Origin: a virus
IMG/VR virus record: IMGVR_UViG_3300045738_002458
Coordinates: 1-28,911 of that record
Reading direction: 5' to 3' (one strand)
DNA length: 28,911 nucleotides
Part shown: in pieces, positions 2,147 to 27,591 of the stretch
Position numbering within the stretch: the first letter of the stretch is position 1
Layout of the letters: each line of letters starts with the position of its first letter
Made by a program: the position numbers and the translations under genes
The notes under the pieces: model-generated
What the model was told of the DNA's origin: nothing
Database searches by the model: none
What the model saw: the letters and a program-made list of their open reading frames with translations, nothing else

Positions 2147-2180
2147 GTTACTACTAACTAAAATAGTAGTAACACTGTTA
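2147..2180. promoter_or_regulatory. Recurrent intergenic element, copy A, with inverted repeat
   Basis: GTTACTACT (2147-2155) and AGTAGTAAC (2165-2173) are perfect inverted arms around a 9-base spacer. The right arm continues as AGTAGTAACACTGTTA, 15 of 16 bases identical to copies B and C but on the plus strand. The symmetry looks more like a protein-binding operator than an RNA hairpin, since no T-run follows. Confidence 0.5.
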
Positions 2181-2183
2181 AAT

Positions 2184-2543
2184 CTATTTAAAAGGAGAGT
2201 CAGTTTTTACCCGTGCTACGGCCTCTATCCAGTTGTTCTTAGCCTCATCAGTCTGGTCAAACTGCCACTCCATGAACAGCTTATCAGTTTGGGCATAACC
2301 CTTTTGGCGAGCCTTGATCATCTTAGCGTTATGCATCTCGATGGTTGGCACAACAACCCCCCAAGCACTAGTGCTTGGGTCATAGATTTTACCCATGTAC
2401 TTGAACGTCGGGTCGAAATCTATTTCGTACCAATTTTCTAAGTCTTCTGGCACAGGCCACACTTGAACCGACCTACACGTTTCAACATCGACATATGCCT
2501 TATCGAAGACTTCTTCGGTCTTCGGAACATGATTAACAATCAT
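2184..2543 (-). CDS. Tail fibre assembly chaperone-like protein
   Basis: I chose the ATG at 2543 (MIVNHVPKTEE, 119 residues): it overlaps the fibre stop as TAATG and has GGAG 8 bases upstream. The longer reading from 2573 adds ten residues without such a site. The C-terminal stretch DKLFMEWQFDQ, followed by WIEAVARVKTDSPF, follows the pattern of phage tail-assembly chaperones (an aromatic LF segment, a charged turn, then W-x-x-x-V-x-x-I/V-K with a Pro near the end). The protein would help the adjacent 2,261-residue fibre fold or trimerise. The direct downstream, translationally coupled position supports this. It is not expected in the mature virion. Confidence 0.6.
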   Translation of the reverse strand: MIVNHVPKTEEVFDKAYVDVETCRSVQVWPVPEDLENWYEIDFDPTFKYMGKIYDPSTSAWGVVVPTIEMHNAKMIKARQKGYAQTDKLFMEWQFDQTDEAKNNWIEAVARVKTDSPFK

Positions 2544-5500
2544 TATATTTTCTCCACAATGTTCACGCCCCATATACGACGGATAAGGCTGTTTTCGCCA
2601 TGTTCAATAAGCCCCCGCTTACCTTGCAGTGACACACGCCAGTATTTGTCGTAAAGGGGGCTTGATAGCATGAATTGCTTATCGTCAAATTTACCTACGT
2701 CAGCCTTTACTACATATGTAGGGATCAAAGTAATACCCATCACATCATCATTATCTTCTGAACCCTCAACGGCCAAAAACTCGTATTTGTCGTAGTCGTC
2801 AGACAGCGTAATGTTACCATTCGCAAGACCCGCAGCGTTGTAGTAAAGCGATGTGTAATCATACTTCATTTGTATCTGCTTGAATGCAGGTGACTTACCA
2901 GTGAAGCTGCGCACCGAAATAGCCATCGAAGTACCGCTAAGGCGAGTTACACGTATGGTGTACCTCTGACCACTTGCTGCATAGTTATCACTGATTTGGT
3001 CATCAATATGTATAGAAGAACTTCCTTCCCAACGACCATAACTAGGTGAGCCATACTCGTTGTCTACATGCTGAAACGATGTCCCTGTGTAGGTACGGTT
3101 AACGATTCGAGTATTAGACGTTGTACCCCGAAAAATCTCTACGCGCCAATTAGGTGTTGAGTAGCCTTGTTGTCCTGATCCATTAAGGTAACTCGTTGAG
3201 CCGCTTACAACCCACGAGAGATTAACCTTTCCACCTAGAACTGTTATAGCGGGCAGTACATAAGTCCCCCCCGTGTTCAAGGATTTATTAGTACCACTTT
3301 GCGTGCCACCTGCCACAGTACCCACGTAATACGGGTTTATCTGTCTACGAGCCTCGTCTTGGATGGACTCAATATCAACCGTGTTTTTAGATAATTTACC
3401 ATCAAAGAAACCGTTACCCTTTGTATCCACATAGAATATTGGCGAGATTTCCTTGCCCGCCGAGTCAGTCCTAGATAAAGCTATAGGACGCACAGCATCA
3501 GGAGCAATTTTAAGGCTTGTGTACGAACCACCATTGTTTACTAAGCTATTAACCTGTAGGTGTCTTGCGTTGATAGCGCCCGCACCAATCCAGCTAGCCG
3601 TGATAGTGTTTTCAAGCCCAGCGGGGGGGGTAGATGGGAGGAAATCATCGTACGTAATAACCCTTGAGACAACACCCGTAGTAGCTTTAGCCCGAATGAC
3701 ACCGTTGAACCTAGCGTCACCCTCCATGCCAAGCCATATACCAATTACACCACTCTGTTTGATAACTATTTGGTGCCTACGCTCACCATCGACCTCCCTG
3801 CCATAGTGATACCCGAGCCCAAAATGAGTCGCGTGGGTACGCCAGTCAGTGCCGATTGTCCATATCATTTCATCCACCCCATACCCGAGTGTTTTATAGT
3901 TGCCAACAATACCGCCCTCACCCGTTGGATTAGTGCTATAAAGCTGCTGCTTAAAGCGGATACCACCATCCGTGTTTATTGCCTGTAATGAGTTAGTGCT
4001 TGATGAGAATAAAGCTTTGCCCCCATAGGTGCGAACCCATTCGCTGTCGATCATATAGAGACCACCACCGTGCGAGCTAAAGTAGATACCGTCGTCACTG
4101 TTAGTCCTTATCCATGTGTCACCACTATTTATAAACGTGTGTACCCCTCGTCGTAACCCACCATTAATGTCAACCACGCCATTAACTATAAAATCGCCAT
4201 TACGCCTGAACGCCGCTATATTGCCTCTGTCTCCCCCCGCTGAGCTATATGCACCGCCCGCCGTGCTTGTCTGAATGCGCAGCTCGCCCTCATCGGCATT
4301 AGCCTCAAAGCGAAACGCCCCCTTAGACGCGTTCTTACTTACTATGGCTACGTTTGCGTTTCGCGTTGGGTGCTTAAAAATACCCGCTACTTGGTTAGAG
4401 CCTATGGATGAAGCCTCTGCTATGAGCTGCCCTGTAGTAACTACCGACCCCTCATTATTGATAAGTGCCCCGCGCGTATAGTCGGTAAGCCCCTTGCTTC
4501 CTGTTATAAAACGAGCTATGTCACCCGCCCCCGATTGGACGGCGTAGAACGCTGGGTTGCTAGAATCACGATGCACGTACAAATAATCACTTGTCGGAGA
4601 TGTCGTACCAATTCTTGCGAACGAGGTTGCATGAAAACCATCAAGTTTATCAGCGTCTAGGCCTGATCCACTGCCCATATTATCCGTGTGGAAAAACTCT
4701 TGCCATCCACCGCTGCTACCAGAGCTGACGCGCTTGAACATCATACGGTTAGTGTGGAATGAACACGCTATGTCGAAGTAATAGCCCCCACCATTCGCAT
4801 GGTTAGCGGTGATATGATACCACCAATCATTTGTGGGGTTTTCCAAGGCAGTGTTGTCCGTACCCTCACCACCGCTCCCCGCCACATTAGAGGCTTGTAG
4901 CCCTGAGCGACCATACACCACCTGATTATGGTACTCTAGGAAGTCAGCTCTAACAGCTGTCTCATCTTTGCCCAGATACTTTGAGTCCGATTCAGACTTT
5001 ATAGCGAAATGACTAGTGTTGCCCGTATGGTATATTTTGTTGTCACGATACTTTACCTCTGACAGATCAAGCCATAGCACATCAGTTAGGCCTGTAGCCT
5101 CACCATTTGTGACACTACCCCCAAGCCCAATGCTCATGAACGGGTCGTTACTAGCGTCGGTGTTTACTTCTATACGAGCCGCGTTACCGTTACGTATTGG
5201 TCTTCCATTTGCGTGGTTAAACGTTATGTTTGCGTTACCGTATCCATCGTTAGCGGTTAATGCGACCTTACCATCCATAACGCCAACAATTCTTCCTGAT
5301 GTAACTGCATTTTCTGAGGAAGATAGGTAGCGGCCATTCGCCTCACCCTTAGAGTAAACATCAACAAACGCACGGACAGACGACATGTTAGAGCAGAATC
5401 GAATGTAGTTGTCACTTGTACTATTTCTAAATGCGATAGCACCGCTAATATCGGACTGGCTTCCGTACCTAGAGCGAAAAAGTCGAGAATGTATGTCACC

Positions 5501-8500
5501 TGCGCTGTCTCGACTGGCGATACTGTTTCCCGTAATACCCGTTGCGTAGCTTCTTCCACCTAGCTTGTCAGCATTTGTCGCTGTGGCCGTTTTGCCTAGA
5601 TACTTAGACGACAGCTTAGTGCCACTCTCTGAAAAGGAAGGTGCAGAGACCTCATGCGCGAACGCTGCTGTCCCCCCCTTATTGAGACGGAAAGCTATAT
5701 CACCACCATTGTATCGGAACCCCAAAGTGCCGCTTTGATGGTCAAACTGCCAGTAGTTATTCTCGTACGTGGAATCCATTAGGTTTAGCTGTACGTTAGT
5801 GTGCCTTATGGTCAACTGGCCTTCTACCGTTCCGCCCTTGTCACTTCTAAGGAATTGTGACGAATTAATATTGTCTAGCTTGTCAGCATTTGTCGCTGTG
5901 GCCGTTTTGCCTAGATACTTGCTACCTAACGATACGCCATTTTCATAAAAGTTAACTGAGTGGACTTCTTTAAACTTCCACGAACTTGTGCCCAAGTTAC
6001 TTTTGTTATTGGCATATGGCAATAAGCCCGAACTTGTTGTGCGAACCCAACTACCCGAACTAGCAGGGTTGTTAGCAGGAAACATGCGCGGGTATGAAGA
6101 ACTGCCCGACGTGTCGATACCCAGATAACTTGGCTGCTCTTTTACATCTTTCCAGCGAACGTCTGTTATGAACCCACCACTTGATATTGTTGGTTCTGAA
6201 ACACTAACAGCAAAAAAGAGCTTGTCAGCATAATTGTAAGAGACAACACTTTTAGGATTAAACGTAATGTTCGAGATAGTGAACTCGTACGTGTACTCTA
6301 ATCCTTTAGTCGGTGCGGGTAAGATAACTTGTTCTGAGAAGTTGAACGATGTGCGGTAAAGTCTGTGACCACCCTCCTCTGTTGAGTAATTAATGTTAGC
6401 TGACAGACGAATTGTAGCTTTACCTACCGTAAAGTTATGCGCCGCGCCGTTTAGCTTCATTGTCACATCGAACGCCACATCTTTAAGGCCTGCTTCATTA
6501 GGGCCACTAACACTAAAGTTCATAGTTTGGGCGCTACCGCCCGACTTAAGAGCGGGCACTGAGATTTTCTTGTTAAACCCAACCCCCTTTGAAGTAATAG
6601 ATTGCGTGCCCCCTAGTACAACACCATCAGGGCTGACGCGTACTAGGCCATCTTTAAAAGCGGGGTCAATCATGTGTTCGCGGATTGCACCAGGCGGCAT
6701 AGTAATGTCGTCCGAAAGTATAGCAATACCGTCAACCGCTAAACGGCCACTGTCGATTGTTTCCGCTGATAATTGACGAATAACGGCTTCGTCAAGGTAC
6801 ATGTAGTTACGGTCTTCTGAGAAGTAGAATGGGAACTTTGACTTATCCAATTCGCTACTGCCATTCCAGTTAGGTGGCACGATAGCAATTTCATCAGCTT
6901 GGAAGTAAAGCTTACCACCCGCGTCCACACCACTGCCTTTAGACAGCAAATGGACACCCGATACTTTACCGTTAGCATCTGCTTTGATTACACGCTCAGC
7001 TTTAAGGATGCCCGTCGTTGAATCTGTATAAGCTCTCGCGATGCTTTTAGCACTGGCCACCGCCCCATTTTGGTTGCTATTAACTTCCTCAATACGCGCG
7101 GCACTGTCTGCCGTTGCCTGCTCAAGTACCGTCGCACGACTCCTAGCGTCAACCGCTCTGCTATTGGCTGTATTAGCTGTGCTTTGCGCTGTGTTCGCTT
7201 TTGACACGCCAATTTCTGCCCTTGACTCAACACTAGTAAAACGTGTTGCATAGTCACTGCTAGTTTCCTCAAGCGTTGTAACGCGATTAGTCGCGGCGAC
7301 TGCCTTGTTGTCTGCTGCATCAGCGGCACTTTGCGCCGTATCAGCTTTATCTACAGCGCTGTCCGCCACAGTTTCTACAGCAGTGAAACGTGTTGCGTAA
7401 TCTTCGCTTGTTTCTTCTAGTGAGGACACACGGTTCGTAGCGCTAGTAGCCTTCGAATCCGCTGAGTTAGCTTTAGTCTGTGCTGCGTTTGCCTTATTAA
7501 CACCCGTAGTAGCTTTCGTTTCCACAGTGGTTAAACGTGACGCATGACCCGTACTAGTTGACTCAAGCGTTACCACACGATTTGTTACCGCTGTAACCTT
7601 TGTATTTGCCGAGTTCGCTTTGGCCTGTGCTGCATCTGCTTTAGTAGTCGCGGTGGTTGCCGTAGTTTCAACATTAGTTAAGCGCGAGGCATGACCAGCA
7701 CTCGTTTCTTCAAGCGTTCCGACACGATTCGTTACAGCCGTTACTTTAGTCGTTGCCAAATTAGCTTTTGCCTGCGCTGTATTCGCTTTGCTAACACCGC
7801 TATCTGCTGTGCCTTGCGCATCATCTGCTTTAGTGACTGCTGTAACTGCTTTCGTTTCTACCGTAGATAAACGGGACGCATGACCTTCGCTGGTTTCTTC
7901 TAACGTAGACACACGGTTAGTAGCAGCTGTTGCAATAGTGGTTGCAGCATTAGCCGTGTCTTGTGCATCATCCGCTTTAGTAACCGCGCTAGTTGATTTG
8001 GTCTCAACGTTAGTTAAACGTGACGCATGGCCTGTGCTGGTTTCTTCAAGTGTTCCAACACGGTTCGTTACAGTCGTAACCCTCGTATCAACCGAATTTG
8101 CTTTAGCTTGTGCCGCGTTCGCTTTAATAACACCGCTATCTGCTGTGCCTTGCGCATCATCTGCTTTAGACTCTGCGGTAGTCGATGCGGTCTCAACACT
8201 CGTTAAACGTGACGCATGACCCGTGCTAGTTTCTTCAAGTGTACCCACACGATTCGTTACGGTTGCGACCTTAGTATTTGCCGAATTTGCTGATCCTTGT
8301 GCGGCATCTGCTTTAGTGACTGCACTAGTTGATTTGGTTTCAACATTAGTTAAACGTGACGCATGGCCTTCGCTAGTTTCTTCAAGACCTGTGACACGGT
8401 TCGATACAGTTGCGACCTTAGTATTTGCTGCGTTTGCTGAGCCTTGTGCGGCATCTGCTTTAGTGACTGCACTAGTTGATTTGGTTTCAACATTAGTTAA

Positions 8501-9328
8501 ACGTGACGCATGGCCTTCGCTAGTTTCTTCAAGTGTAATAACACGCGCTTTACTCTCACCATTGCTAGTCTCAAGAACGGCTACACGTTGGGCTTGTTCA
8601 TCCGTAATCGTCTCAAGGCCGACAATAGCCGAACCGTGCGAACCCGTTAATGATGAAAGACCTGTAATGTCGTTCTGAACGTTACCGATTGCGGTAGCAG
8701 CCGATGCAATTTTAGAATCAGCCAATGCAATATTAGACGTAAGACGAGTGTCCGTAGACTTAATAGTTGCGTCTAGCCCTTCGACAGCCGTATCAATGCG
8801 AGATACGCCATCTGTAATGCGCTCGTCAGTAGTTACAATAAGGGCATTAGCCTTATTTAGCGATACAGTGAAGTTGTGTTCCGCAGTCGCAAGTGCCGAG
8901 GCTAAGCCACCATCTGCGGCCTTAAGGCGTGACTCTACATCATCGACCGCAACGGCAATGTCATCTTGTTTGGTGAGTATTTCATTGAGGACTTCTGGAT
9001 CAACGTCATCACCATCAGTACCTTTGATTAGCGACCAATCGAAAATACTTGGGTCAGCTAGTTTGGGTTGTTCAGTAGTTTGGCCTACTGCGAAGCCTAT
9101 ATATTCTTTGCCCTCTGGCAATAGGCTTATGCCGTTACCTTGTTCATCATCAGCGTAGGCTTTCCACACATGGTAAGCGGGGCCTACGGCCTCTGCATTC
9201 AGGTCGATTACGTGCCAAGCACCCTCTAACCTAGAATAAAACGCCGTATGGTCTACCCATACCGCGTTTCTCTTAACTTTTACCGATACGACTTGTTGCC
9301 AAGTCCCATTTACTTTTATAGCTGACAT
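2543..9328 (-). CDS. Giant tail fibre protein with coiled-coil repeat shaft
   Basis: The 2,261-residue product is the likely long receptor-binding fibre. Residues 1-45 have two G-x-W segments (NGTWQQV, EGAWHVI) typical of tail-attachment ends; 50-110 resemble the ADDEQGNG...GTDGDD module of phage tail proteins. Residues 263-731 are nine heptad repeats (see repeat entry). Residues about 784-857 resemble the C-terminal fibre module of lambda J (ANGKVSGV, then FPFYFSEDRN and LDEAVIRQLS). After that come beta-rich fibre segments with LGKTATATNADKL and YHTGNTSH motifs, and a compact C-terminal domain that is the probable receptor-binding tip. No S74 self-cleaving chaperone is visible; a separate chaperone gene follows. 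It starts 13 bases after the adaptor gene. Confidence 0.9.
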   Translation of the reverse strand: MSAIKVNGTWQQVVSVKVKRNAVWVDHTAFYSRLEGAWHVIDLNAEAVGPAYHVWKAYADDEQGNGISLLPEGKEYIGFAVGQTTEQPKLADPSIFDWSLIKGTDGDDVDPEVLNEILTKQDDIAVAVDDVESRLKAADGGLASALATAEHNFTVSLNKANALIVTTDERITDGVSRIDTAVEGLDATIKSTDTRLTSNIALADSKIASAATAIGNVQNDITGLSSLTGSHGSAIVGLETITDEQAQRVAVLETSNGESKARVITLEETSEGHASRLTNVETKSTSAVTKADAAQGSANAANTKVATVSNRVTGLEETSEGHASRLTNVETKSTSAVTKADAAQGSANSANTKVATVTNRVGTLEETSTGHASRLTSVETASTTAESKADDAQGTADSGVIKANAAQAKANSVDTRVTTVTNRVGTLEETSTGHASRLTNVETKSTSAVTKADDAQDTANAATTIATAATNRVSTLEETSEGHASRLSTVETKAVTAVTKADDAQGTADSGVSKANTAQAKANLATTKVTAVTNRVGTLEETSAGHASRLTNVETTATTATTKADAAQAKANSANTKVTAVTNRVVTLESTSTGHASRLTTVETKATTGVNKANAAQTKANSADSKATSATNRVSSLEETSEDYATRFTAVETVADSAVDKADTAQSAADAADNKAVAATNRVTTLEETSSDYATRFTSVESRAEIGVSKANTAQSTANTANSRAVDARSRATVLEQATADSAARIEEVNSNQNGAVASAKSIARAYTDSTTGILKAERVIKADANGKVSGVHLLSKGSGVDAGGKLYFQADEIAIVPPNWNGSSELDKSKFPFYFSEDRNYMYLDEAVIRQLSAETIDSGRLAVDGIAILSDDITMPPGAIREHMIDPAFKDGLVRVSPDGVVLGGTQSITSKGVGFNKKISVPALKSGGSAQTMNFSVSGPNEAGLKDVAFDVTMKLNGAAHNFTVGKATIRLSANINYSTEEGGHRLYRTSFNFSEQVILPAPTKGLEYTYEFTISNITFNPKSVVSYNYADKLFFAVSVSEPTISSGGFITDVRWKDVKEQPSYLGIDTSGSSSYPRMFPANNPASSGSWVRTTSSGLLPYANNKSNLGTSSWKFKEVHSVNFYENGVSLGSKYLGKTATATNADKLDNINSSQFLRSDKGGTVEGQLTIRHTNVQLNLMDSTYENNYWQFDHQSGTLGFRYNGGDIAFRLNKGGTAAFAHEVSAPSFSESGTKLSSKYLGKTATATNADKLGGRSYATGITGNSIASRDSAGDIHSRLFRSRYGSQSDISGAIAFRNSTSDNYIRFCSNMSSVRAFVDVYSKGEANGRYLSSSENAVTSGRIVGVMDGKVALTANDGYGNANITFNHANGRPIRNGNAARIEVNTDASNDPFMSIGLGGSVTNGEATGLTDVLWLDLSEVKYRDNKIYHTGNTSHFAIKSESDSKYLGKDETAVRADFLEYHNQVVYGRSGLQASNVAGSGGEGTDNTALENPTNDWWYHITANHANGGGYYFDIACSFHTNRMMFKRVSSGSSGGWQEFFHTDNMGSGSGLDADKLDGFHATSFARIGTTSPTSDYLYVHRDSSNPAFYAVQSGAGDIARFITGSKGLTDYTRGALINNEGSVVTTGQLIAEASSIGSNQVAGIFKHPTRNANVAIVSKNASKGAFRFEANADEGELRIQTSTAGGAYSSAGGDRGNIAAFRRNGDFIVNGVVDINGGLRRGVHTFINSGDTWIRTNSDDGIYFSSHGGGLYMIDSEWVRTYGGKALFSSSTNSLQAINTDGGIRFKQQLYSTNPTGEGGIVGNYKTLGYGVDEMIWTIGTDWRTHATHFGLGYHYGREVDGERRHQIVIKQSGVIGIWLGMEGDARFNGVIRAKATTGVVSRVITYDDFLPSTPPAGLENTITASWIGAGAINARHLQVNSLVNNGGSYTSLKIAPDAVRPIALSRTDSAGKEISPIFYVDTKGNGFFDGKLSKNTVDIESIQDEARRQINPYYVGTVAGGTQSGTNKSLNTGGTYVLPAITVLGGKVNLSWVVSGSTSYLNGSGQQGYSTPNWRVEIFRGTTSNTRIVNRTYTGTSFQHVDNEYGSPSYGRWEGSSSIHIDDQISDNYAASGQRYTIRVTRLSGTSMAISVRSFTGKSPAFKQIQMKYDYTSLYYNAAGLANGNITLSDDYDKYEFLAVEGSEDNDDVMGITLIPTYVVKADVGKFDDKQFMLSSPLYDKYWRVSLQGKRGLIEHGENSLIRRIWGVNIVEKI
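5560..5605. repeat. Exact 46-bp direct repeat in the fibre gene, copy 1
   Basis: The same 46 bases occur at 5875-5920, an offset of 315 bases (105 codons), in frame. The repeated peptide is the KYLGKTATATNADKL fibre motif. Exact identity at DNA level suggests recent duplication or gene conversion inside the fibre shaft. Confidence 0.85.
5875..5920. repeat. Exact 46-bp direct repeat in the fibre gene, copy 2
   Basis: Second copy of the 46-bp repeat at 5560-5605. Flanking sequence differs on both sides, so only the LGKTATATNADKL motif segment is shared. Confidence 0.85.
7136..8542 (-). repeat. Nine-unit 147-bp (49-residue) coiled-coil repeat array
   Basis: Residues 263-731 of the fibre divide into nine units that start V-x-x-LEETS and end near TNR. 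Seven are 49 residues (exactly seven heptads). Units 3 and 5 are 63 residues because of an extra 14 (two heptads) around GVxKANxAQAKAN. DNA identity is high between units nearest the N-terminus: 8295-8386 and 8442-8533 are identical over 92 bases at an offset of 147. Units 7-9 are the most diverged (units 8-9 have DYATRF in place of GHASRL). The array should form a long trimeric coiled-coil rod. Confidence 0.9.
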
Positions 9329-9340
9329 TGAGGATTTCCA

Positions 9341-11670: not shown

Positions 11671-13484
11671 ACAAGTTCCTCTGGCGCTTGAGCTAATTGA
11701 ATATCGCGAATTTCTAGCGGGACAGCTTGGCTAATTGGGTCAACGCCCACACGCCATCTGAACGCACGGCTATTAAACGGCAAGTAGAAGAACGTAGGGC
11801 TAGCCACTTCTTTCGTATAGCTAACAATCTCGCCTGTAAGTGCATGGTCATACTCAACACGAAGACGCACGGGGTATTGGTTCGCACGTACTTTTGCAAT
11901 GTTGAAACACGTTGGGTCATTGAACACATACGTTTTTGAAGTCCACTCGACAGGCATAACAGCATCGCTACTAGAATCGAACAACATAAGCTCTCGGCTA
12001 TCAGTGTCGATGTAAGCAAGGTCGTTTGTTTCCTCAAGCTCAACGAATGATTCAGCGCTGATGTCAACGGTTCGTATGCCCGCATTTGGATCAATAGCAT
12101 CAAACACAAACGTTTTGCCGACCGTTGGGCAATGAACAAACACCTTGTTATCTGAGTTCGCTAATCGCATGGTAGATGGGTCAAGCGCGCGCCATTCGTC
12201 AGACTCGATAAAGCCTGTGCTAACGTTAGCCATTGAATAGCTTTCAATACGGAATAGGCCGACCTCACTCGCGAAGTAGACAGCCCCCGCCACCTCAGTC
12301 GAGCCGTGTGGACTTGAGCAAGGAACTGGATCAGCAAGTCTAGCCGCATCCATTGACTCAGGATGAACACCTTGAATTATGTAGGGAACGCCCGTAGTTA
12401 ACACAACAAGGTTTGAACCTGATGGTTGGATGGTCACGATGTCTTCTTGGAACACTTTGTAATACTTCACAGGCCACGCGTAGAAAGCTCCTGGCTCTGC
12501 AAAACATAAGATTCGTTTGTTATGGCCGACAAGTATATCCGCGCCCATGACCGCAATCTTTTCCATTGCGCCACTAGGGAAAAGCGCAGCATTGGTATCA
12601 GGTGCGCCCACCCAATCCTCGTTGATAGGGGCATCAAGTAAGTCGCCACTGTACGCGCTATCCACATACGTTAATTGTGTGCTAGGAATTTCAGCAACGA
12701 ACTGAAACACACTCTTACCCGATGTGCCCAAGTTAGTGCGGTAGATACGGGTTTTAGCTGTTGTCTTGCGAAGTGGATCAGCCGAAAGTAAAGAGTCTGG
12801 AACATCTGGCAACGTAAGCGTAACCGCTGTTGTGTTTATATATTCCCACTCACGGATAGTCACTAAATCGGTCGGGTCAGACAGCGCGCTTAATCTGCCC
12901 CACGCATCAACATAACAGATAGCGTATACAACTTCTGACAGGTCATACTCACTAACCTCAGGGTCAGTGAAAGGACGAACGCCAACGATTCCATCGCCAT
13001 TACTGTCCGTTCCTTCTTCAAAGTCAGGCGGCATTTCTTCACCTCCATCACCATTCGCCACCGCTTCTGATACCCACTTTTCAGCATCACCCGTTGTCAC
13101 TCCGACAATAGATAAAGGCACTGGAACATTGAGCGGATAAGAGGCCGCTGGGTATGGCCCTCCCCCTTCTTCTGCGTCCAAGTTGTATGCGACTTGTGGG
13201 TCAGTATCTTTTGAAGCTATAACAACAAAGTCGTACGCATCATTCTTAAGAGGCGCTTTAACCGCGTATGTAACTTGCGGCCAAGAGAACCATTCGTTGC
13301 GGTACTTGAACATAGACTTAGCATTGCTACGGCCATACTGACCAAGCGACACAGGCATTGCCCACGGCTCAAGAATGCCCCGCTCAGATTTAGTATTATG
13401 CGATACGGTAGCGTAACCATCGGGCACTTGTTCATCATCAAACTTTGGTGCAGTGCCCAAGAACGCATTGAAGAGGATTTTCAT
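11667..13484 (-). CDS. Podoviral tail nozzle or tail-stabilisation protein
   Basis: The 605-residue product begins MKILFNAFLGTAPKFDDEQV and is beta-rich throughout. The repeated blocks (DILVGHNKRILCFAEPGAFY, GAVYFASEVGLFRIESYS, NKVFVHCPTVGKTFVFDAI) look like blades of a beta-propeller, as in T7 gp12 nozzle and related podoviral proteins. Loop DSNGDGIVG at 160-168 has the spacing of a calcium-binding EF-hand-like loop. By family and position it should form the distal tail tube below the adaptors and carry the fibres. It overlaps the M15 peptidase gene as TAATG and has little ribosome-binding site of its own, so coupling is likely. The order here (after the ejection proteins) differs from T7, where the nozzle precedes them. 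Confidence 0.6.
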   Translation of the reverse strand: MKILFNAFLGTAPKFDDEQVPDGYATVSHNTKSERGILEPWAMPVSLGQYGRSNAKSMFKYRNEWFSWPQVTYAVKAPLKNDAYDFVVIASKDTDPQVAYNLDAEEGGGPYPAASYPLNVPVPLSIVGVTTGDAEKWVSEAVANGDGGEEMPPDFEEGTDSNGDGIVGVRPFTDPEVSEYDLSEVVYAICYVDAWGRLSALSDPTDLVTIREWEYINTTAVTLTLPDVPDSLLSADPLRKTTAKTRIYRTNLGTSGKSVFQFVAEIPSTQLTYVDSAYSGDLLDAPINEDWVGAPDTNAALFPSGAMEKIAVMGADILVGHNKRILCFAEPGAFYAWPVKYYKVFQEDIVTIQPSGSNLVVLTTGVPYIIQGVHPESMDAARLADPVPCSSPHGSTEVAGAVYFASEVGLFRIESYSMANVSTGFIESDEWRALDPSTMRLANSDNKVFVHCPTVGKTFVFDAIDPNAGIRTVDISAESFVELEETNDLAYIDTDSRELMLFDSSSDAVMPVEWTSKTYVFNDPTCFNIAKVRANQYPVRLRVEYDHALTGEIVSYTKEVASPTFFYLPFNSRAFRWRVGVDPISQAVPLEIRDIQLAQAPEELV

Positions 13485-13858: not shown

Positions 13859-13861
13859 GAT

Positions 13862-13892
13862 AATGCCCTATTAGTATTACTATTAGGGCATT
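13862..13892 (-). promoter_or_regulatory. RNA hairpin covering the ribosome-binding site of the M15 gene
   Basis: AATGCCCTA and TAGGGCATT are perfect arms; extending inwards gives 14-bp arms with one mismatch and a 3-base loop. There is no T-run, so it is not a normal terminator. The AGGG that precedes the GTG start by about nine bases lies in the 3' arm, so folding should hide it. It could also be an RNase processing site. Confidence 0.55.
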
Positions 13893-13893
13893 G

Positions 13894-13909
13894 TAACAGT
13901 ATTACTACT
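13894..13909 (-). promoter_or_regulatory. Recurrent intergenic element, copy B
   Basis: On the minus strand this reads AGTAGTAATACTGTTA, identical over 16 bases to copy C (20695-20710). It begins right at the stop codon of the giant protein gene and is followed by the hairpin before the M15 gene. The preceding bases TTAAATAA also match the context of copy D. Promoter element or protein-binding site is likely; no good sigma-70 promoter overlaps it. Confidence 0.5.
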
Positions 13910-16900
13910 TTATTTAATCAAATTCTTGACCCCCTCATTGATTGGTTGCGCAAGCCAAGGGATTTGGTTAGCAAGCGGGACAATACGGCTCGGCTGCATT
14001 TCAAGCGTCGCAACGTCCACAGCGAATTGGGCACTTGGCCCTGCTGCCGCCACAACGGGGTGATTACCATATGTAGTGCCCGCATATATTGACTCCGCCA
14101 TTGTCGCAGGACCGAGAAGTCCAGTAGCCGCAAAGACAGCTCCGCCCCAATCCCCTATGTTACGTTCGCCCTGCCATTTAGGACGACCAAACGGGTATCG
14201 AATCTGTTCACGGATAGTCTCTGCAACCAACGCAAGAGGCACGGCAACTGCAGCGGTTACAGCAACAGCCATCATAGGATTGACACTGCTGTCCTTGTCC
14301 TTGAAGCCTTTTGCTAATGACTTGTGCACGTTATCGTAGAAGCCATAGAAGAACTTCTTAAGTGTGGTGACAAGCAGGAAACGTGGGTCATTCGCCACTA
14401 ATGGGAGCTGAGTAGCGCGCGGATTCGTAACAGCCTCATTCACAAATTGGTGAACAGCATCACGATAGCGTTTACCCGCTGGCGTATTCAGGTCGGCTTT
14501 ATCCTTGAACTCCGTAACATCTTTAGCAGTAACGCCTAGCTCTTTCAAACGGGCAACACCGCTCGTTCCTTCTTCAACGGCACGTATCATGTAGCGTTCA
14601 GCCGCTTTCGTTGCAATTGCGCGTGTCATCTTAGTTACATAATTCTGACCATTCAGCTTGAACACAGTGCCTTGTATCTTCTGCGACACACGGCCTGTCG
14701 ATAGGTCATTCATGTTGTACATTTCTTGTAGCGAATGCTCGATAGCGTCATTGGTTATAATGTCGTAATCACGTGCCACCTTGTACATTTTCTCACGACC
14801 TACGCTTGTCAAAACGCTTTTAGCATCGTTGAGCATTCCATCGGTATCACCACGCATACGTGCGTAAGTTGCCGCAACCTCAGGGATACTCGCTAGGCCA
14901 GTGAACCACAGAACAGTAGCCGCTTGGAAACCAAGTGCCGCAGAGTTAAGGGCGCGTAACTTAGGTGACATACTCATACCTAATCGCCCTGTCACACCTT
15001 GGTAAAGTTTAGAGAACTCGTGGCGATTGCCCGTATGTACTTCACTTTGAATACGGTTAAACTCGCCATTAGAATCCCATTTGCCATCTACCATTGAGCC
15101 ATGCGTTTTGTTCCATGCTGACCAGCTTGTAGCCGAATTAACTAGACGCAACAAGTGGCGCGGCGCATCGGTGTCAACGAACTTACCCTCTTTCAGCTTA
15201 TCGTAAAGTGGGTCAAGTACCTTACGGCCTGCTCTTGGTGGGTTCGACAGCTCTGGGCGAATAGCAAACTCAGGGTAGCCACGACCATCTAAAATAGACT
15301 CTAAGAGCGATTCAGGATTCTTTACATTACCTTCGCGGAGGATAGACAAAAAGCCCTCTCTATTGCGCTCAATAACGTGTGTGTCTAAATGCACCTTAGA
15401 ACTTACTGACTCAAACGATTTGTCGTTTTTACGGGTGTATTCATTCAGGTCTTTAAGGAATGCCTCGTACTTAGTACGTTCAGGACTATTCACGTTGCGT
15501 ATGGTGTCCTCATAGCCTTTCTGAATGGCTTTGTTGTTGCCAACATCTTTGCCTATTCTTGAGGCGTAATACTCCGTAGCGTTTCGCTGAATGGCCGTAA
15601 ACTTATCTGCGCGTAGTGCTGCGTCAGGATGGATGCGTTCAAGGCGCGTACGTGTCATTTCTAACAAGCGAAACATAGATTTCTTCGCTAGGCCACGGTT
15701 ACGTTTAACAACTTTCATCAGTTTACGATTAAGCTGTATCTTACGGCCTTTGCTAACATCAGTGCCCACTCCAACATCGTTGTCCTTGTGGCTCTTGAGT
15801 GCCAGTTCCGCTATTTCCATACGTCTTTGTGCTTCTGACAGGATAGCGGCCTTAACATCGACTCCCTCTTTTGAGGAATCAGCTACCGCTTTAATACCTT
15901 TAAGGCGCTCCAATCGGTGCTTTGCCTGTACCATATCGCGGTGAACATCTGACGCATTACCGAAGTCACCTTTATTAACGAATGGCTTGCGTGAGTTATT
16001 ACGTTCTTGATTACCTACTGCATGTAACAGGTCGCTTGGTGCATTGTCCAAATCACCGTGCGCGTTACGAATAGCAGTTTTACTGTGGCCTTTAACATCA
16101 TCACGGCGTATTGCGTCAACAAGTGATCGCTTCATGGCGCGTCTTGCTTCGGTATGCTCCACTCTGGCGCGCTCTACTTCGGCAACCATATCATCGCCCT
16201 TGCTCTTTTTGGCAAGTTCAAAGTCTTCGCGAGCTTTGGCTGCATTCTCAGTTAGTGCCTCACGGGTAGCCGTTTCCTTTTTGCCGCTAAGGTTTTCAGT
16301 TTTACGTGTTTTGCGGATTGCGCCACGAGTGTTAGCGACTTCCGATATTTCATCACGGTTAGCGATTTCATTGTCTACACGTTCTGATTTGATCGTAAGC
16401 TCACCGCCATCTTTAGCCGCTTGCTCGTAGTCTTTATCGAACACGCCCGAACGCGCATCACGAAGTATGTCATCGCCTCGTTCTTCTGAGATTTTGCCTT
16501 CATCAATTGAGCGCTGAACCAGTGTATGCACATCATCGTAAGAGACTTCATCGCGGTACACATTGCCAATATCCTCAGGCATAAGGTCAGACAGTGTGCG
16601 AGTCTTGCGCATATTGCCCTCAATACCCGACACCAACGAAACCAACTCTTTGGGCAGCAAGTCACCCACTTTTACCGCGTGTTCTGCGGTAGCGATAACG
16701 GTCTTAAGCTCTGGGGCATCCGACAGTTTTAACCCAATCTTACGAAGCAATGGCCTAACAGCACGGTCAACATGAGGCGCACGAACAACATCAACTTTTT
16801 TGTTGTACTTACGGCCTTTGTGGTAAACATTAGCGCGTATTGCACCCATAGTTACCGACGCAAGCTTGTCGCCATTCATACGGTAAACAACGGAATCGTC

Positions 16901-20635: not shown

Positions 20636-20671
20636 ACAAAAAATCCCTAACATTTAACTGTTAGGGATTTT
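20636..20671 (-). terminator. Terminator-like hairpin holding the ribosome-binding site of the giant gene
   Basis: AAAATCCCTAACA (20640-20652) and TGTTAGGGATTTT (20659-20671) are perfect 13-bp arms with a 6-base loop. On the minus strand TTTTTT follows, the form of an intrinsic terminator or attenuator. The start codon lies only four bases further on, and the only AGGGA site is inside the 3' arm, so the hairpin may both stop transcription and block translation. Confidence 0.75.
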
Positions 20672-20676
20672 ATCAC

Positions 20677-20710
20677 ATTACTACTTAGTTGCTTTAACAG
20701 TATTACTACT
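20677..20710 (-). promoter_or_regulatory. Recurrent intergenic element, copy C (one full, one half copy)
   Basis: On the minus strand, AGTAGTAATACTGTTA (20710-20695) is identical to copy B, and AAGTAGTAAT (20686-20677) repeats its first half 24 bases further on. It overlaps the stop codon of the 629-residue gene and precedes the hairpin before the giant gene, the same order as at copy B. Confidence 0.5.
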
Positions 20711-22598
20711 AAAGCTTATCGGAAGTAAAACCTGTATCAAACAGTTTTTGACGTTCTTCATTCCAGTCTAAGCCCTTTTCCTTTGCGGCATCTGAATATC
20801 TCATTAGCTTTTTATCATACGCATTACGCACCTCACGAAGCGAACGGCCTGAGTTCTTAGACGCGCCTAAAATCGTCTGTGCCGCGTTTGGCTTGAACTT
20901 ACCTAATGCTGTGTTGATAAATGGTAGAACAGTCTCAGCAGACAGGTTATTGTCCTCTCCTTTATTTGCCAAGAACGAACGAACACCCTCATTGAACATA
21001 GCGCCGAACTTAGGGTCTTTCATCTGGTCAATGCTGAAAGTTTCGCTACCCATCAGGCTTGTCGCCAACGCTTTAACACGGCCACGAACACCCGCAGCTT
21101 GTTGTCCTTTAAGTCCCATTCGACCACTATACCAATCAGCAATATTAGAGCCCTCATCCTGTAGGAACTTCAACGCATCATTTCGGCGCTTAACATCGCT
21201 TTTATAATTCTTACCCGCTAAGTCAACATACTTGCGCTGGGCATCAAAGCGTTTTGCTTCGGCTGTCGCTACGGCCGTTTGACCTCTGGCCTCTGCTACA
21301 TCAAGTGCCACATTGTGCTTGTCCAATTCCATCTTAGACACACGCATATCGCCCGTTTCCATGTAGTTACGCATCTGACCTTCGTCAATGTTATTAGTAA
21401 GGTAAAGCTCACCCACAACAGCGGCACGTTTACGACGAGTTGCATACTTTTCATGAATGGCTTGCATACGCTTTTCAGCATCACCGGACTGCAACACAGG
21501 CTTAAGCTCTGCTCTGGCCTTAAGCGGTGGTGAACCCATGCTCTCTACCGTTTCTTTGGTATCCACAAGATCATCGACACCCTCAGGCGTTTCTATTTTA
21601 TTGCTAGGGAGTATCTTAACTTCGCCCTTTTTCTCGATACTAGCCTTAGCATTTTTGCCCATAACAAACTGGTTGGCCGTCTTCTTAACCGTATCACCAA
21701 AGCCACGTTCCTTAGCGCCATCCGACAGCCAGTTACCCGCTTCCATGATTTTTCTAGCACCCGCTGCACCTTTGTTATACATCTGTTCAAGGCCAACAAA
21801 TACACTCTCTGTCATCTTACGCTGCACGAAACCTATCGGGTTCGCCAAGTCGCTAGCTGTTACAGAACCATCGCCTTCAGCCTTTACAGTTGGCACACCT
21901 TCGCCCGCATTGATAGGCACATCACTGTCAGGTGAAGTCTGCTTACCTTTCAACAGTCCATGAGACTTAAGGTTAGACATAAACTCCGATTCACTGGCTT
22001 CACGAATGTTGCCATCTTCATCTGAGGTAAAGCCCGCACGGATATAGGCCGAATGGTTTTCAGGTTCAACGCCATTACTTTCCGCAATATCAATACTGCG
22101 CTGTGCATGTTCCTGTAGGCGCGGTAAGTCTACGTTCTTGGCACGAAGCGGCTTACTCTTATCATCGTTTGGATTTGACGTTAACTGCGTTTGCTCTCCA
22201 TTATCTTTTAGAACACCGAATGAAGTAGTGCCATCGCCATTGTCTACAGGGGTAATTTCGTCACCACTGCGGCTAACAGAACGAGACAAACGCTTGTTAC
22301 GTTCAACTGCGGCCTGTTCCTGCGCATCAATATCACCCGATATACTGTCTACATAAGACTGGCGCGCTTGTTTAGATTGGTCACGCTCGGCTACCTTGTT
22401 GTCGTACTCGTCCGTCTGCCTGTTGAACAACGTTTCCGAACGGTTGTCAGCAATAGCCTGTCGTGACGAACGTTCTTCATCTAATTTCGCTTGTCGGTTA
22501 CGCGCATACGTCTTATCTTTCTGACGCTCGGTGTAATCCGCGTACTGCCCAATTGCATTAATGATGGCCGTGCCATCGTGCATGCCATATCCTGCCAT
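20709..22598 (-). CDS. Internal virion protein, T7 gp15-like by position
   Basis: The 629-residue product starts at MAGYGMHDG; AAGGA lies six bases before this ATG, while the earlier ATG at 22604 would touch it. The protein is hydrophilic and mostly helical: residues about 25-110 are charged coiled-coil (ARNRQAKLDEERSSRQ, then AQEQAAVERNKRLSRS), and the C-terminal third is also helical (KRFDAQRKYVDLAGKNYKSD). No enzyme motif or membrane span is visible. Size and place between a Gly-zipper protein and the giant protein fit the T7 gp14-gp15-gp16 order, so a part in the ejection conduit is likely. This is inference from position; I do not recognise a sequence family. Confidence 0.55.
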   Translation of the reverse strand: MAGYGMHDGTAIINAIGQYADYTERQKDKTYARNRQAKLDEERSSRQAIADNRSETLFNRQTDEYDNKVAERDQSKQARQSYVDSISGDIDAQEQAAVERNKRLSRSVSRSGDEITPVDNGDGTTSFGVLKDNGEQTQLTSNPNDDKSKPLRAKNVDLPRLQEHAQRSIDIAESNGVEPENHSAYIRAGFTSDEDGNIREASESEFMSNLKSHGLLKGKQTSPDSDVPINAGEGVPTVKAEGDGSVTASDLANPIGFVQRKMTESVFVGLEQMYNKGAAGARKIMEAGNWLSDGAKERGFGDTVKKTANQFVMGKNAKASIEKKGEVKILPSNKIETPEGVDDLVDTKETVESMGSPPLKARAELKPVLQSGDAEKRMQAIHEKYATRRKRAAVVGELYLTNNIDEGQMRNYMETGDMRVSKMELDKHNVALDVAEARGQTAVATAEAKRFDAQRKYVDLAGKNYKSDVKRRNDALKFLQDEGSNIADWYSGRMGLKGQQAAGVRGRVKALATSLMGSETFSIDQMKDPKFGAMFNEGVRSFLANKGEDNNLSAETVLPFINTALGKFKPNAAQTILGASKNSGRSLREVRNAYDKKLMRYSDAAKEKGLDWNEERQKLFDTGFTSDKL

Positions 22599-22610
22599 GA
22601 TCATTCCTTA

Positions 22611-23878: not shown

Positions 23879-23879
23879 T

Positions 23880-24269
23880 TCAAAACTCCATAGCATACGT
23901 CTTTGATTCAACGTGGAAGCCTACTTGCGCGGCCACGCGACCCCAACCTTCTCTTGGGCTGGTAAAAGTCAGTTTACTACACCCCAACTGTTTGACATAG
24001 CTAGTAGTAGCACTAATAACATCAGGCCATGAATCAAGGTGGCCTTTCAACGAAGCCGCACATAAAACGTGACACTTATTCTCAGACCATTGGGCAATTA
24101 GGAACGCATCTTCCCCCACTAAATGTAAAGTAGCTGCACCAACGAGTAACAGACGTTCTACCTCATGCTCAGGGTAGCCCCCGAACTCACGATAAAGCCG
24201 CTCAATGAACGGCTTAATTGTAGGGAAAACCCTTGGTATGTCTTCAACACTGAATGGATCACTTACCAT
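23880..24269 (-). CDS. Small GNAT-like protein, T7 gp13-like by position
   Basis: The 129-residue product ends with LTFTSPREGWGRVAAQVGFHVES (104-122 region), the pattern of the last part of a GNAT acetyltransferase fold (R/G-x-G-W, then a helix and GF-x-x-x-x). The CoA-binding R/Q-x-x-G-x-G/A loop is weak, so enzyme activity is doubtful. Small GNAT-like proteins stand in this place, between tail genes and internal proteins, in many podoviruses, including T7 gp13, which is needed for assembly. Its start overlaps the upstream gene by seven bases (ATGGTAA). Confidence 0.5.
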   Translation of the reverse strand: MVSDPFSVEDIPRVFPTIKPFIERLYREFGGYPEHEVERLLLVGAATLHLVGEDAFLIAQWSENKCHVLCAASLKGHLDSWPDVISATTSYVKQLGCSKLTFTSPREGWGRVAAQVGFHVESKTYAMEF

Positions 24270-24877
24270 GAAAATCCTGTATTAAACTGCACCGAACGTT
24301 TCGGGCGACTGCGGTCATCACGTGCTTCACGCTTAGCCTTTTCGATACCTTCGCGAAAGTGCATTTCGTACGTTGCGGCTGCACGGCTGTTAGCCCAAGT
24401 AGCATCTGGCATCGACAGTAAACGGGCGATAGCTCCACGCCTTATAACGTCAAACCATTTGTCAGCTAACGAGTCGGGTACGCTTTCTATGTTTCGGGTG
24501 GGCTGCACAACAACCGATACCTCAAGCGTACCCTTTTCAAACGCGTCTAAAATGATAGTGTTACCACTGTGCGAGAATGACCCCACACGGTTTGTTTTAC
24601 TGATGCGGTGAGCTAGTTCACTCACAAGCTTAAAGCGGTCACTACGACCCTCAGGCTCGAAATAAGCGAACTTCGTTGACGCTACATAAGTTTCCTCAGG
24701 TAACATTTGAAGTGCCGCAGTGTCCTCTACAAGTTCGATGCGCTCGGTGTGTAACCACACTTCCGAAGTCCTAAAAAACTCTTGCAGGGCGTAACGTACT
24801 TGTCGCGCCACTGTAGGGTCTAACGGCTCTGAAACGTCCATGCGGATACTGTCTACCCATTCTTGGACGTTAGCCAT
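24263..24877 (-). CDS. Second adaptor or tail-tubular-like protein
   Basis: The 204-residue product has an alpha/beta arrangement: helical N-terminus (VARQVRYALQEFFRTSEVW), a beta-rich middle, then the pattern DSLADKWFDVIRRGAIARLL followed by a long charged helix. This late helix with an Ala-Arg-Leu-Leu core resembles the final part of podoviral adaptor proteins like its upstream neighbour. It may be a second ring component between portal and nozzle. The start overlaps the upstream stop as TAATG. No enzyme motif is seen. The assignment rests on pattern and position. Confidence 0.5.
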   Translation of the reverse strand: MANVQEWVDSIRMDVSEPLDPTVARQVRYALQEFFRTSEVWLHTERIELVEDTAALQMLPEETYVASTKFAYFEPEGRSDRFKLVSELAHRISKTNRVGSFSHSGNTIILDAFEKGTLEVSVVVQPTRNIESVPDSLADKWFDVIRRGAIARLLSMPDATWANSRAAATYEMHFREGIEKAKREARDDRSRPKRSVQFNTGFSW

Positions 24878-25542
24878 TAACGAGCCCCTATTGGATCACG
24901 TGTCACACCATTGTCGCTTTCCATGCTAGCTTGTGTGTCACCAATTTGAGCCGTAAACACATTGTAGTAACTTTGCGCGCGAGCCTGCATTCCTTCCGAT
25001 TCAGTGAACTTACCGAACGCACGATGCAAAATGTAGTTAGCTACACAAGCGGCGTACATCGTAGGTAATGGGAACGGTTCATCAAGTGATAAAACCTCTG
25101 CTGGCGTAGTACCAATAACCATCATTAAACCATTACCGCCGATTGTAGGTGGATACACATAGAAAGTTCGCGGGTCAGTAAGGCTTACACTGTAGCGGAA
25201 GACTGTTAGCGTTTTAGTAGCGGCCATCCAGTTTGGGTCTTCGTTATCCAGTGTAGCGCGTTCGACACGACGAACTGAGCGACCTTCATCTTCACCCACC
25301 ATATTACAAACAACTTCTAGCACACGCGATGCGCCAAGCGCCGCTACACTCTGTTTAGAGCCTGCGCTTAAGTTAAAGGTTTCAGTGCTGCTGCATGATT
25401 CAGGACGTACACGGGCAATTTCGGCACAAGCTTCGTTAAACCATTGGATTAACTCAGGGTCACGCCATTGAACACCGCCCTCGTCAATATCACGTAAAAG
25501 TACACGGACGCGGTTTGTTAGTATTGTTCCTACGGTTAACAT
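24877..25542 (-). CDS. Phage adaptor (head-to-tail) protein, gp11/DUF6682-like
   Basis: The 221-residue product starts LTVGTILTNRVRVLLRDIDE and continues with WRDPELIQWFNEACAEIAR, the start pattern of podoviral adaptor proteins (a D-x-x-G-x-x-W followed by an L-x-x-W/F-x-N-x-A helix). The middle is beta-rich (RTFYVYPPTIGGNGLMMVIG), and the end holds PFPLPTMYAACVANYILHRA, the usual late helix. In this family the protein forms a twelve-fold ring below the portal and receives the tail nozzle. AGGG stands about ten bases before the ATG. Confidence 0.7.
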   Translation of the reverse strand: MLTVGTILTNRVRVLLRDIDEGGVQWRDPELIQWFNEACAEIARVRPESCSSTETFNLSAGSKQSVAALGASRVLEVVCNMVGEDEGRSVRRVERATLDNEDPNWMAATKTLTVFRYSVSLTDPRTFYVYPPTIGGNGLMMVIGTTPAEVLSLDEPFPLPTMYAACVANYILHRAFGKFTESEGMQARAQSYYNVFTAQIGDTQASMESDNGVTRDPIGAR

Positions 25543-25556
25543 GACGTTTTTCCCTA

Positions 25557-25910
25557 TTACTCAGATGCTTTAGTAGCTGCGTTCGCGGCACGTGTTGCTG
25601 CAGATTTCTTAGCTGCTTCACTTGCTTTAGCTTTTTTTGCGGCTTCTTCTAACGCTTTCGTCTGTTCCGTTGCGGCTTCCACTTCTGCTTTAGCCTCAGC
25701 GTCTTTATGAGACTGAACCACAGATGCAAGCTCGGCTTCACGTTCTGCAATATCCATAATGTCATCAAGTGGCACTAGGCCTGCGCGAATTGCATCTTCT
25801 TCAAGGTGCTGTGGAACGCTGCGTTCTTCGCCAGATTTAAAACGGATAACATGGCCGCCAATGCGGGCAGTTACACGGATAGTGTCGCGAGTAAAGTTTT
25901 TCAATTTCAT
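25557..25910 (-). CDS. Small head-associated structural protein
   Basis: The 117-residue product has two parts. Residues 1-50 form a small beta domain with GGHVIRFKSGEERSVPQHL, a pattern common in short phage structural proteins next to capsid genes (a G-H-x-I-x-F, then VP and a helix ending in G-L-V-P). Residues 60-117 are an Ala/Lys/Glu-rich coiled coil (AKAEVEAATEQTKALEEAAK). Its place directly after the capsid gene and before the adaptor suggests a head-completion or decoration role. The alanine-rich tail is low-complexity and may vary between relatives. Confidence 0.6.
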   Translation of the reverse strand: MKLKNFTRDTIRVTARIGGHVIRFKSGEERSVPQHLEEDAIRAGLVPLDDIMDIAEREAELASVVQSHKDAEAKAEVEAATEQTKALEEAAKKAKASEAAKKSAATRAANAATKASE

Positions 25911-25959
25911 GTTTTTGTCTCTTTAGAGGTCGGGGGCAATCGTCACCACCCCCTGCAAA

Positions 25960-27099
25960 TTAGATCGCGAAGTCGATACGTAGAACGCCGTAATCTTGTT
26001 TAACAGCACGGTCAGCAGTCTTCTTAGCATCTTTGAACTGCATTTTCTTCATACCGAAGATTTTGCCGTACGCGATACCGAAGTTGTTACCGTAATCGAA
26101 ATGGTCTCGTTCATCCCATGAAGGGCTATCAAGGTCAATAAAGCCGAGTGCTTGAGCGCCACATAGTAAGCCCATGCAACCTTCAACAGTGCCAGTAGCA
26201 CCCCATTTAGAACCCGAAGCGACACCAAGCGTAGTTGGTACATGACGGAACTCATGGATGTGTAGGCCATCAACAATGTAAGACTCGCCGCCAGCAAACA
26301 ATGTGTTACTGTCGCCACGAACGCCCGCATGACGCGCATTCTCTTTGAAATCAGGGTCTAATTTCAGTGCAGCAAGTGCCATTGGGTGTAGGAACAAGTG
26401 GTAAACTTCTGAACCGCCAGTGCCACGAATACCACGAATGTAACGAGTCTTAGCAATCGCTTGTAAACGTACAATGTGGTCGTAGCCTAGTTTGTCTTGG
26501 GCAGTAATAGCAGTCGTGTCACTTTCAGTAACTTGGCCGCCTTTAATACACATAAGGTGACGCTCAGACGTTGAGGCAAGGCCGCCATCAGTGTTGAACG
26601 CTAAGTCAGACAAGTTGTCATCATTAGAGCCCTGACCAGGACGTACTCGACCATCATTCGTTTGCGCGAAATCTAAGCCAGCTAGTTGTAGGAATGTCAT
26701 CTGATCTAAACGGTCTGATAACCAGTAAGATAGCTGGTCACGCGCTTGTTCACGGAAGTTAACAACCGTTTTCTGGTCGTTCATTTTACCCGTGTTCTTC
26801 ACTGCGTTACGTAATTGGTCAACTTCAACTTTGTCTTGATGCGCAGTTAATGTTGATTCGTTACCGGTCAGCTCGTTGTCACCAACAATACCGTCGCCGT
26901 GCATATCTGGAACAAGGGTTACAACTGCTTCTGTACCACGTTCTGATTTAGTCAGCTCCGTAATACGTTGGATCATTGCGTTTTGACCCGAACCCATGAA
27001 CTTAGACACGAACATCTTGTCGCGTGCTTGATGCCACGTATCACGTGACCATACTTTTTTAGCGTCATCATCTAACGCTGAGAAATTAGTTTTTGCCAT
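25960..27099 (-). CDS. Major capsid protein, N4-gp56 family
   Basis: The 379-residue product has the features of N4-gp56-type capsid proteins: an N-terminal arm with KKVWSRDTWHQARDKMF, then MIQRITELTKSERGTEAV and VTLVPDMHGDGIVGDNELTG (the GDGI-x-GD-x-L-x-G block), and NFREQARDQLSYWLSDRLDQ. These have the HK97 fold and make the icosahedral shell. Length is normal for the family. GAAGGA precedes the ATG at a somewhat long distance. Between it and the scaffold gene lie a bidirectional terminator and two reversed genes, so the capsid gene should need its own promoter, for which copy D of the recurrent element is the best candidate. Confidence 0.92.
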   Translation of the reverse strand: MAKTNFSALDDDAKKVWSRDTWHQARDKMFVSKFMGSGQNAMIQRITELTKSERGTEAVVTLVPDMHGDGIVGDNELTGNESTLTAHQDKVEVDQLRNAVKNTGKMNDQKTVVNFREQARDQLSYWLSDRLDQMTFLQLAGLDFAQTNDGRVRPGQGSNDDNLSDLAFNTDGGLASTSERHLMCIKGGQVTESDTTAITAQDKLGYDHIVRLQAIAKTRYIRGIRGTGGSEVYHLFLHPMALAALKLDPDFKENARHAGVRGDSNTLFAGGESYIVDGLHIHEFRHVPTTLGVASGSKWGATGTVEGCMGLLCGAQALGFIDLDSPSWDERDHFDYGNNFGIAYGKIFGMKKMQFKDAKKTADRAVKQDYGVLRIDFAI

Positions 27100-27283
27100 T
27101 ACAGTGCATATCCTTCGTTAGTCCCTGAGCCGTTGGCTTGTTGCGAAACGACAAACAGAGGACTTAATAAATCCAAGTGTTTTGAGTCGTCCCGTAACGT
27201 GGGTCTATCGAAATGTATGCACGGCATGACTGAGCTGTGAGGCAGGATTGATTTACAAGGCATCACCTTGAATATGCTTCAAT

Positions 27284-27324
27284 AGTAGCAATACTACTTA
27301 AAAAAGTAAACAGTAACACTACTT
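27284..27324 (-). promoter_or_regulatory. Recurrent intergenic element, copy D, with inverted repeat
   Basis: AGTAG and CTACT (27284-27298) are inverted arms around CAATA. Next to them, on the minus strand, AAGTAGTGTTACTG resembles AGTAGTAATACTG of copies B and C, with the same TTAAATAA just before it as at copy B. A terminator between scaffold and capsid genes means a leftward promoter is needed in this interval. Confidence 0.45.
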
Positions 27325-27498
27325 ATTTAAAGCGCGCGAATGGGCTAATATGTTGCTTATACATACTTTTTTGATGGGCAACCTGCTTTATTTTCGATCA
27401 CTTTTGTTGTAATTCAGCAGAAAACATAATAATATTACTTCTGTTGACGTAGCCGTCAGCAGCAATGATCTGCCCTCATTGCACAATGACCACAAGCT

Positions 27499-27515: not shown

Positions 27516-27591
27516 GGCTATAAGTCTTTGTTTGATGGGGCAAGTAACAACAGCAATTTTGCCAATATCGATGCCTATTAAGGGGTCTATT

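Follow-up and report, generated by a model that had tools for sequence, protein, structure and literature searches.

A dispersed 17-bp dyad as the probable operator of a lambda-CI-like immunity repressor in a group of temperate phages

The stretch of DNA analysed here (the window, G000; IMG/VR record IMGVR_UViG_3300045738_002458, 28,911 nucleotides) is a 28.9-kb fragment of a temperate phage, coding for an integrase, tail and internal virion proteins, an M15 peptidase, two giant proteins and the capsid. The original prediction drew attention to a 16-base element repeated at four transcription-unit boundaries of the window. This element forms part of a 17-base-pair (bp) dyad, TAnnAGT-nnn-ACTnnTA, which most probably serves the phage's own lambda-CI-like immunity repressor as its operator. 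The dyad would be bound by a repressor dimer, tandem dyads 22-25 bp apart would allow cooperative binding, and the dyads lie on ordinary predicted sigma70 promoters at most transcription-unit boundaries. Because they are found on early and late promoters alike, the repressor would shut each promoter of the prophage separately, instead of the early ones only, and when repression fails the host sigma70 polymerase could start at each late unit. Prophage silencing of this kind, one promoter at a time, would extend to the late genes. A large part of the regulatory map can be proposed from sequence alone for this unstudied group of temperate phages, which has a P22-like portal protein and members in Shewanella and in a Bermanella metagenome-assembled genome (MAG).

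The repeats themselves were recovered as described. Two exact copies of the 16-mer are present (13894-13909 and 20695-20710, minus strand), together with a copy that has one mismatch (2165-2180, plus) and a looser one that has three (27308-27323, minus). Chance is excluded as their source, since eight matches with at most three mismatches were counted where dinucleotide shuffling gives 0.22, and none of 100 shuffles reached eight. Across all viral contigs the exact 16-mer has about 100 scattered matches; the only two that come from a known relative are in G001. Two details of the original prediction did not hold. First, the strand of the copies carries no information because the element is palindromic, and the copy at 2165 is therefore not opposite in sense; second, the TTAAATAA that precedes two of the copies was rejected as part of the element, as at 13917-13910 it coincides with the Ile-Lys-stop end of a giant gene. 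The intergenic location was borne out in that the copies lie in short gaps between genes, but two of them touch or overlap the stop codon of the upstream gene, so that the sites stand at the very start of these gaps.

The distribution of the dyad was followed in relatives of the window. G001 is a complete relative of 65.5 kb that matches most of the window at 93-97% identity. Its gene order recurs in three further near-complete relatives; others reside within a Shewanella gaetbuli chromosomal contig (capsid 72% identical) and a contig of the Bermanella MAG (capsid 93% identical). Sites were scored with a symmetric 17-bp matrix, for which G001 and G002 were the training genomes, at a cut-off of at least 14 bits. 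It finds 19-20 sites each in G001 (20), G002, G003, G004 and G013, against 0.2-0.6 in Markov sequence. G005, a fragment of 35 kb, has eight, and the Shewanella prophage, which is outside the training set, has 14. The symmetry of the matrix is by design; the sites are near-palindromic themselves, for example TAACAGTGTTACTGTTA in G001. Sites are concentrated between genes: six of nine in the window, where such DNA is 3.5% of the sequence (p=1.4e-7), 14 of 20 in G001 (p=1.8e-11), 10 of 18 in G003 (p=5e-7) and 13 of 14 in the Shewanella prophage, in 10% of the sequence (p=1.2e-12). The values for the window and G001 depend on the training set and those for G003 and the Shewanella prophage are independent of it; genes were called by a simple longest-ORF (open reading frame) rule, which tends to score promoter regions as coding. 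Early (replication) and late arms are occupied alike, and close neighbours are spaced 22-25 bp apart, the sole exception being a pair at 42-43 bp in three genomes.

At most boundaries of the window the dyad is accompanied by a second, often weaker one about 23-25 bp away. The dyads and the predicted promoter elements beside them are as follows.

27308-27324, AAACAGTAACACTACTT on the plus strand: operator-like dyad adjoining and overlapping the -35 box of the promoter upstream of a 55-amino-acid (aa) ORF and the major capsid gene
27283-27299: second capsid dyad, 25 bp away, overlapping the -10 box of the capsid promoter
27282-27310, minus: predicted sigma70 promoter of the capsid unit, TTTACT-17-TACTAT
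20695-20711, TAACAGTATTACTACTA: operator-like dyad that begins in the stop codon of a 631-aa gene and precedes the giant 2247-aa gene
20670-20686 (inferred position): degenerate second dyad of the giant gene, 25 bp downstream, overlapping the -10 box
20667-20672, minus: predicted -10 box TAAAAT of the giant-gene promoter
13894-13910: operator-like dyad between a giant gene and the M15 peptidase gene, its 3' half running into the -10 box
13869-13885: second M15 dyad, 25 bp away, at the centre of a hairpin
13890-13895, minus: predicted extended -10 box TGTTACAAT of the M15 unit, TGnTATAAT in six relatives
2164-2180, TAGTAGTAACACTGTTA: operator-like dyad upstream of an operon of 117-aa, 63-aa, 51-aa and integrase genes
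2141-2157 (inferred position): second, degenerate dyad at a distance of about 23 bp, which overlaps the predicted -10 box
2142-2137, minus: predicted -10 box TATACT of the integrase operon, TATAAT in relatives
24002-24018: dyad inside a 129-aa ORF (23880-24269), a possible operator or roadblock, or a coding coincidence

The dyads are closely interwoven with the promoters. The 3' half-site often passes directly into a sigma70 -10 box (ACTGT|TATAAT), and a TAxxxT box stands exactly +7 from the dyad centre at about 15 of 72 sites in four genomes, where about 0.3 per position is expected; a second cluster of -10 boxes, at +27 to +31, corresponds to sites that lie 24-25 bp further upstream. At the capsid boundary the -35 region is occupied by one dyad, and the -10 box falls under another in the window, G001 and G003; the promoter there reads TTTACA-18-TATAAT in G005 and G013. 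The M15 boundary reads TGTTATAATG in G002, G004, G005, G013 and the Shewanella prophage, TGCTATAATG in G003 and TGTTACAATG in the window. Three readings of the element had been offered, namely an operator, an activator box and a phage-specific late promoter, and it is the operator that agrees with the symmetry of the 17-bp dyad, its tandem copies, the promoter overlap, the presence in early and late regions and the lambda-CI-like repressor gene of the relatives. If a phage regulator bound at the dyads turned the late (and early) promoters on instead, the lack of a good -35 box at the M15, giant-gene and 117-aa unit promoters, typical of activated promoters, would be accounted for; moreover, lambda CI itself activates PRM, and a CI-like protein could do both. 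However, we regard activation as unlikely because the distance from dyad to -10 box varies (+7, +27 to +31, or with the dyad downstream of the box), while the commonest position overlaps the -10/-35 spacer and would block polymerase, and an extended TGnTATAAT box can do without a -35 box. Repression fits these promoters better than activation, as the placement is variable and the polymerase footprint is overlapped. If a polymerase or sigma factor of the phage's own recognised the element as a late promoter, its position before late units would be explained, but the early region is also filled with sites, and next to them stand sigma70 -10 boxes. The early genes scanned yielded no RNA polymerase or sigma family, and a promoter of this kind, which we rejected, is almost certainly not what the dyads represent.

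The candidate for the repressor is a protein of about 200 aa with a helix-turn-helix (HTH) domain and a weakly S24-like C-terminal half, and it is found in each genome with the 17-bp dyad that includes its early region.

G001 57697-58299: repressor candidate of 200 aa, in the early operon

Its N-terminal part matches residues 16-76 of lambda CI (3kz3, profile search, E=9e-4; segment 'lsqakaakamGmnqsafsqylrG'). The structural model is of low confidence (pLDDT 63, with 74-88 in the N-terminal domain), and lambda repressor structures (3bdn, 7jvt, 1lmb) are its best matches; the N-terminal domain superimposes on 1lmb_3 at 1.3 Å over 63 columns, which is the five-helix DNA-binding domain of lambda-repressor type. 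For the C-terminal half, Peptidase_S24 is hit at E=0.025, below the cut-off, and the lambda C-terminal domain 1kca with probability 1.00 and E=1.5e-3, in a part of the model where confidence is low. The recognition segment MGMNQSA[FY]SQY is invariant among orthologs down to 35% overall identity. Lambda CI contacts its operator through Gln33, Gln44 and Ser45, and the counterparts of all three are conserved in the alignment. In the lambda half-site TATCACC, A2 is read by Gln44/Gln33; the half-site TAnYA of the 17-bp dyad resembles it, and both Gln residues are present in the repressor. The repressor start in G001 is preceded by a dyad at about 40 bp, and G002-G004, G013 and the Shewanella prophage each have one just upstream of the ortholog, so that the repressor would probably regulate itself. 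It is from this combination that we infer binding of the protein to the dyads, repression through this binding, and cooperativity between tandem dyads.

It is highly improbable that another factor, a host regulator or an unrecognised phage protein, binds the sites and that the CI-like protein is a bystander. Several conserved early proteins lack a recognisable domain and could be considered for this role, but no HTH protein other than the CI-like one was recognised in the early region, and this one combines an upstream dyad with an invariant recognition segment. Another factor is further disfavoured by whole genomes of Shewanella and Bermanella, where dyad matches do not exceed the control pattern and those that score best belong to the phage contig or the prophage. 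Two other proteins deserve mention. In L162, a distant HTH homologue, 'GQSAFSQYLNG' is retained, and two dyads with one mismatch each stand no more than 150 bp upstream of the matching region, which is only suggestive. A separate S24/UmuD-like protein (L121:482-868, G001 60482-60868) is encoded near the right end of G001 and has relatives in G002 and G013.

Several observations weigh against assigning the dyads to this repressor. Its gene is known from the relatives and lies outside the window fragment, and it is placed within the early operon, not divergently as in lambda. The relative G006 showed no dyad immediately before its repressor gene, and its half-sites are mostly separated by 1 bp. 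The Ser-Lys dyad of self-cleavage seems to have been lost, as judged by eye (NDFM/DDFG/QDYA/SNHI/DGLP in place of GDSM, followed by a strand that lacks the Lys), and so RecA-triggered (SOS) induction is unlikely; CI-type repressors that are not cleaved do exist, for example the CI of phage 186. The related phages KPP25 and phiA008, by contrast, speak for the assignment: a tblastn search of the phage collection found no repressor homologue in them, and neither has a dyad, in a scan that covered 45 of the 65 kb of phiA008. The absence of sites there is weak evidence, because these phages (60% and 53% guanine plus cytosine, respectively) differ in much besides the repressor and the phiA008 scan reached only these 45 kb. 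A last point against the assignment is that some dyads lie within genes, including three weaker ones in the window (1956-1972, 11957-11973 and the 24002-24018 site above). Such sites, the position of others at unit boundaries and the dispersal over early and late arms, as in mycobacteriophage L5, could also be expected of stoperators, that is, of sites acting chiefly as roadblocks to elongating polymerase in the prophage. As a general explanation this is very unlikely, given that L5 sites are asymmetric, share in most cases the orientation of transcription and lie mostly off promoters, whereas the dyads are symmetric and often abut a -10 box; a minority of intragenic sites could nevertheless act in this way.

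If the dyads are operators of the CI-like repressor, their geometry appears to have changed in one lineage. The repressor of G006 shows 46-48% identity but has the same recognition segment. Exact half-site pairs in G006 are separated by 1 bp in nine cases, by 2 bp in two and by 3 bp in one (0.08 expected for each), as opposed to 3 bp in six to ten cases and 1 bp in none or one in genomes of the window's clade and the Shewanella prophage. Five orthologous promoters were compared (capsid, giant gene, M15, a 67-aa gene and a gp34-like gene): G001 and the Shewanella prophage have the 3-bp gap at all of them, whereas G006 has a gap of 1 or 2 bp, its gp34-like promoter also having a one-mismatch site with the 3-bp gap. 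The change seems to be confined to G006 and the fragments G007-G009 (L135-L142 for the four together), and most of the evidence comes from G006, a single near-complete genome. There is somewhat less than an even chance that related phages with the same recognition segment have changed the half-site gap across most of the regulon, immunity diverging by dimer geometry and not by base recognition. Sister lineages that combine different gaps with the same recognition-helix segment would be a natural experiment on the divergence of phage immunity types.

At two of the boundaries the promoter is combined with a predicted RNA structure.

20638-20671, minus: hairpin and T-run before the giant gene (likely start ATG 20635-20633), its 3' arm holding the Shine-Dalgarno sequence AGGG and its 5' arm beginning in the -10/discriminator region
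13862-13892, minus: hairpin before the M15 peptidase gene (GTG 13858), with the Shine-Dalgarno AGGG predicted to be locked in read-through RNA

Both hairpins start just past the -10 box; their arm sequences vary among genomes and the pairing is kept. When five M15 and five giant-gene leaders were folded, read-through RNA gave -13 to -24 kcal/mol, whereas RNA from the predicted transcription start mostly gave -0.4 to -6, with one at -11.4. Efficient translation would then be limited to RNA that starts at the local promoter, the ribosome-binding site of read-through RNA being sequestered. Since a T-run follows it, the giant-gene hairpin may also terminate upstream transcripts.

The phage is called temperate because of its integrase gene.

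108-1322, minus: integrase (phrog_1, E=1e-39), closing the operon that follows the 2164 dyad

The capsid protein belongs to phrog_334, and the P22-like portal protein was found in a close relative of the window. The closest phages by capsid in the phage collection are Kochitakasuvirus KPP25 and its kin (47%), and a megablast search of the INPHARED collection gave no near-identical phage. A search for attachment (att) sites around the Shewanella prophage gave only a 15-bp repeat at chance level. The two giant genes have 2261 and 2247 codons; tandem repeats of about 147/336 bp (7332-8597) lie inside the former (2543-9328), the ortholog of which ranges from 1138 to 3038 aa among relatives. The gap between the capsid unit and a 199-codon open-ended ORF (27324-28311) looks like a cargo (moron) spot: it contains a 178-aa plus-strand ORF (27752-28288), the place of which is occupied in G001 by a different plus-strand ORF of 138 aa.

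The proposed control has counterparts in well-studied phages. The hairpins recall gene e (lysozyme) of T4, where read-through mRNA also hides the ribosome-binding site and locally started RNA lacks the 5' arm (PMC3014915); here, a predicted effect of this kind concerns two boundaries, those of a giant protein and the M15 enzyme, and sigma70/operator promoters in place of T4 late promoters. The stoperators of L5 and Bxb1 are likewise repressor sites in many places over early and late genes, but they differ from the dyads in orientation, symmetry and position as described above and are bound by another type of repressor (PMC6550527, PMC9283540). The C1 immunity repressor of P1 has 22 dispersed operators (PMC8546580), and the resemblance lies in the silencing of many units by an immunity repressor through numerous 17-bp operators spread across the genome. 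On the other hand, the operators of P1 are asymmetric (consensus ATTGCTCTAATAAATTT) and its late genes are reached through the activator Lpa, whereas the phages studied here have a symmetric dyad of another sequence, sites directly on late promoters and a lambda-CI-like repressor. With lambda CI and its OL/OR operators they share 17-bp dyads, a tandem spacing of about 24 bp, a homologous DNA-binding domain and possibly an S24-like C-terminal domain; they differ in the apparent loss of the self-cleavage Ser/Lys and in having about 20 operators on early and late promoters, compared with six at two early promoters only. The kind of control is thus known from P1 C1, the L5 stoperators and the lambda operators, and it is the arrangement, dispersed over early and late promoters, that is new.

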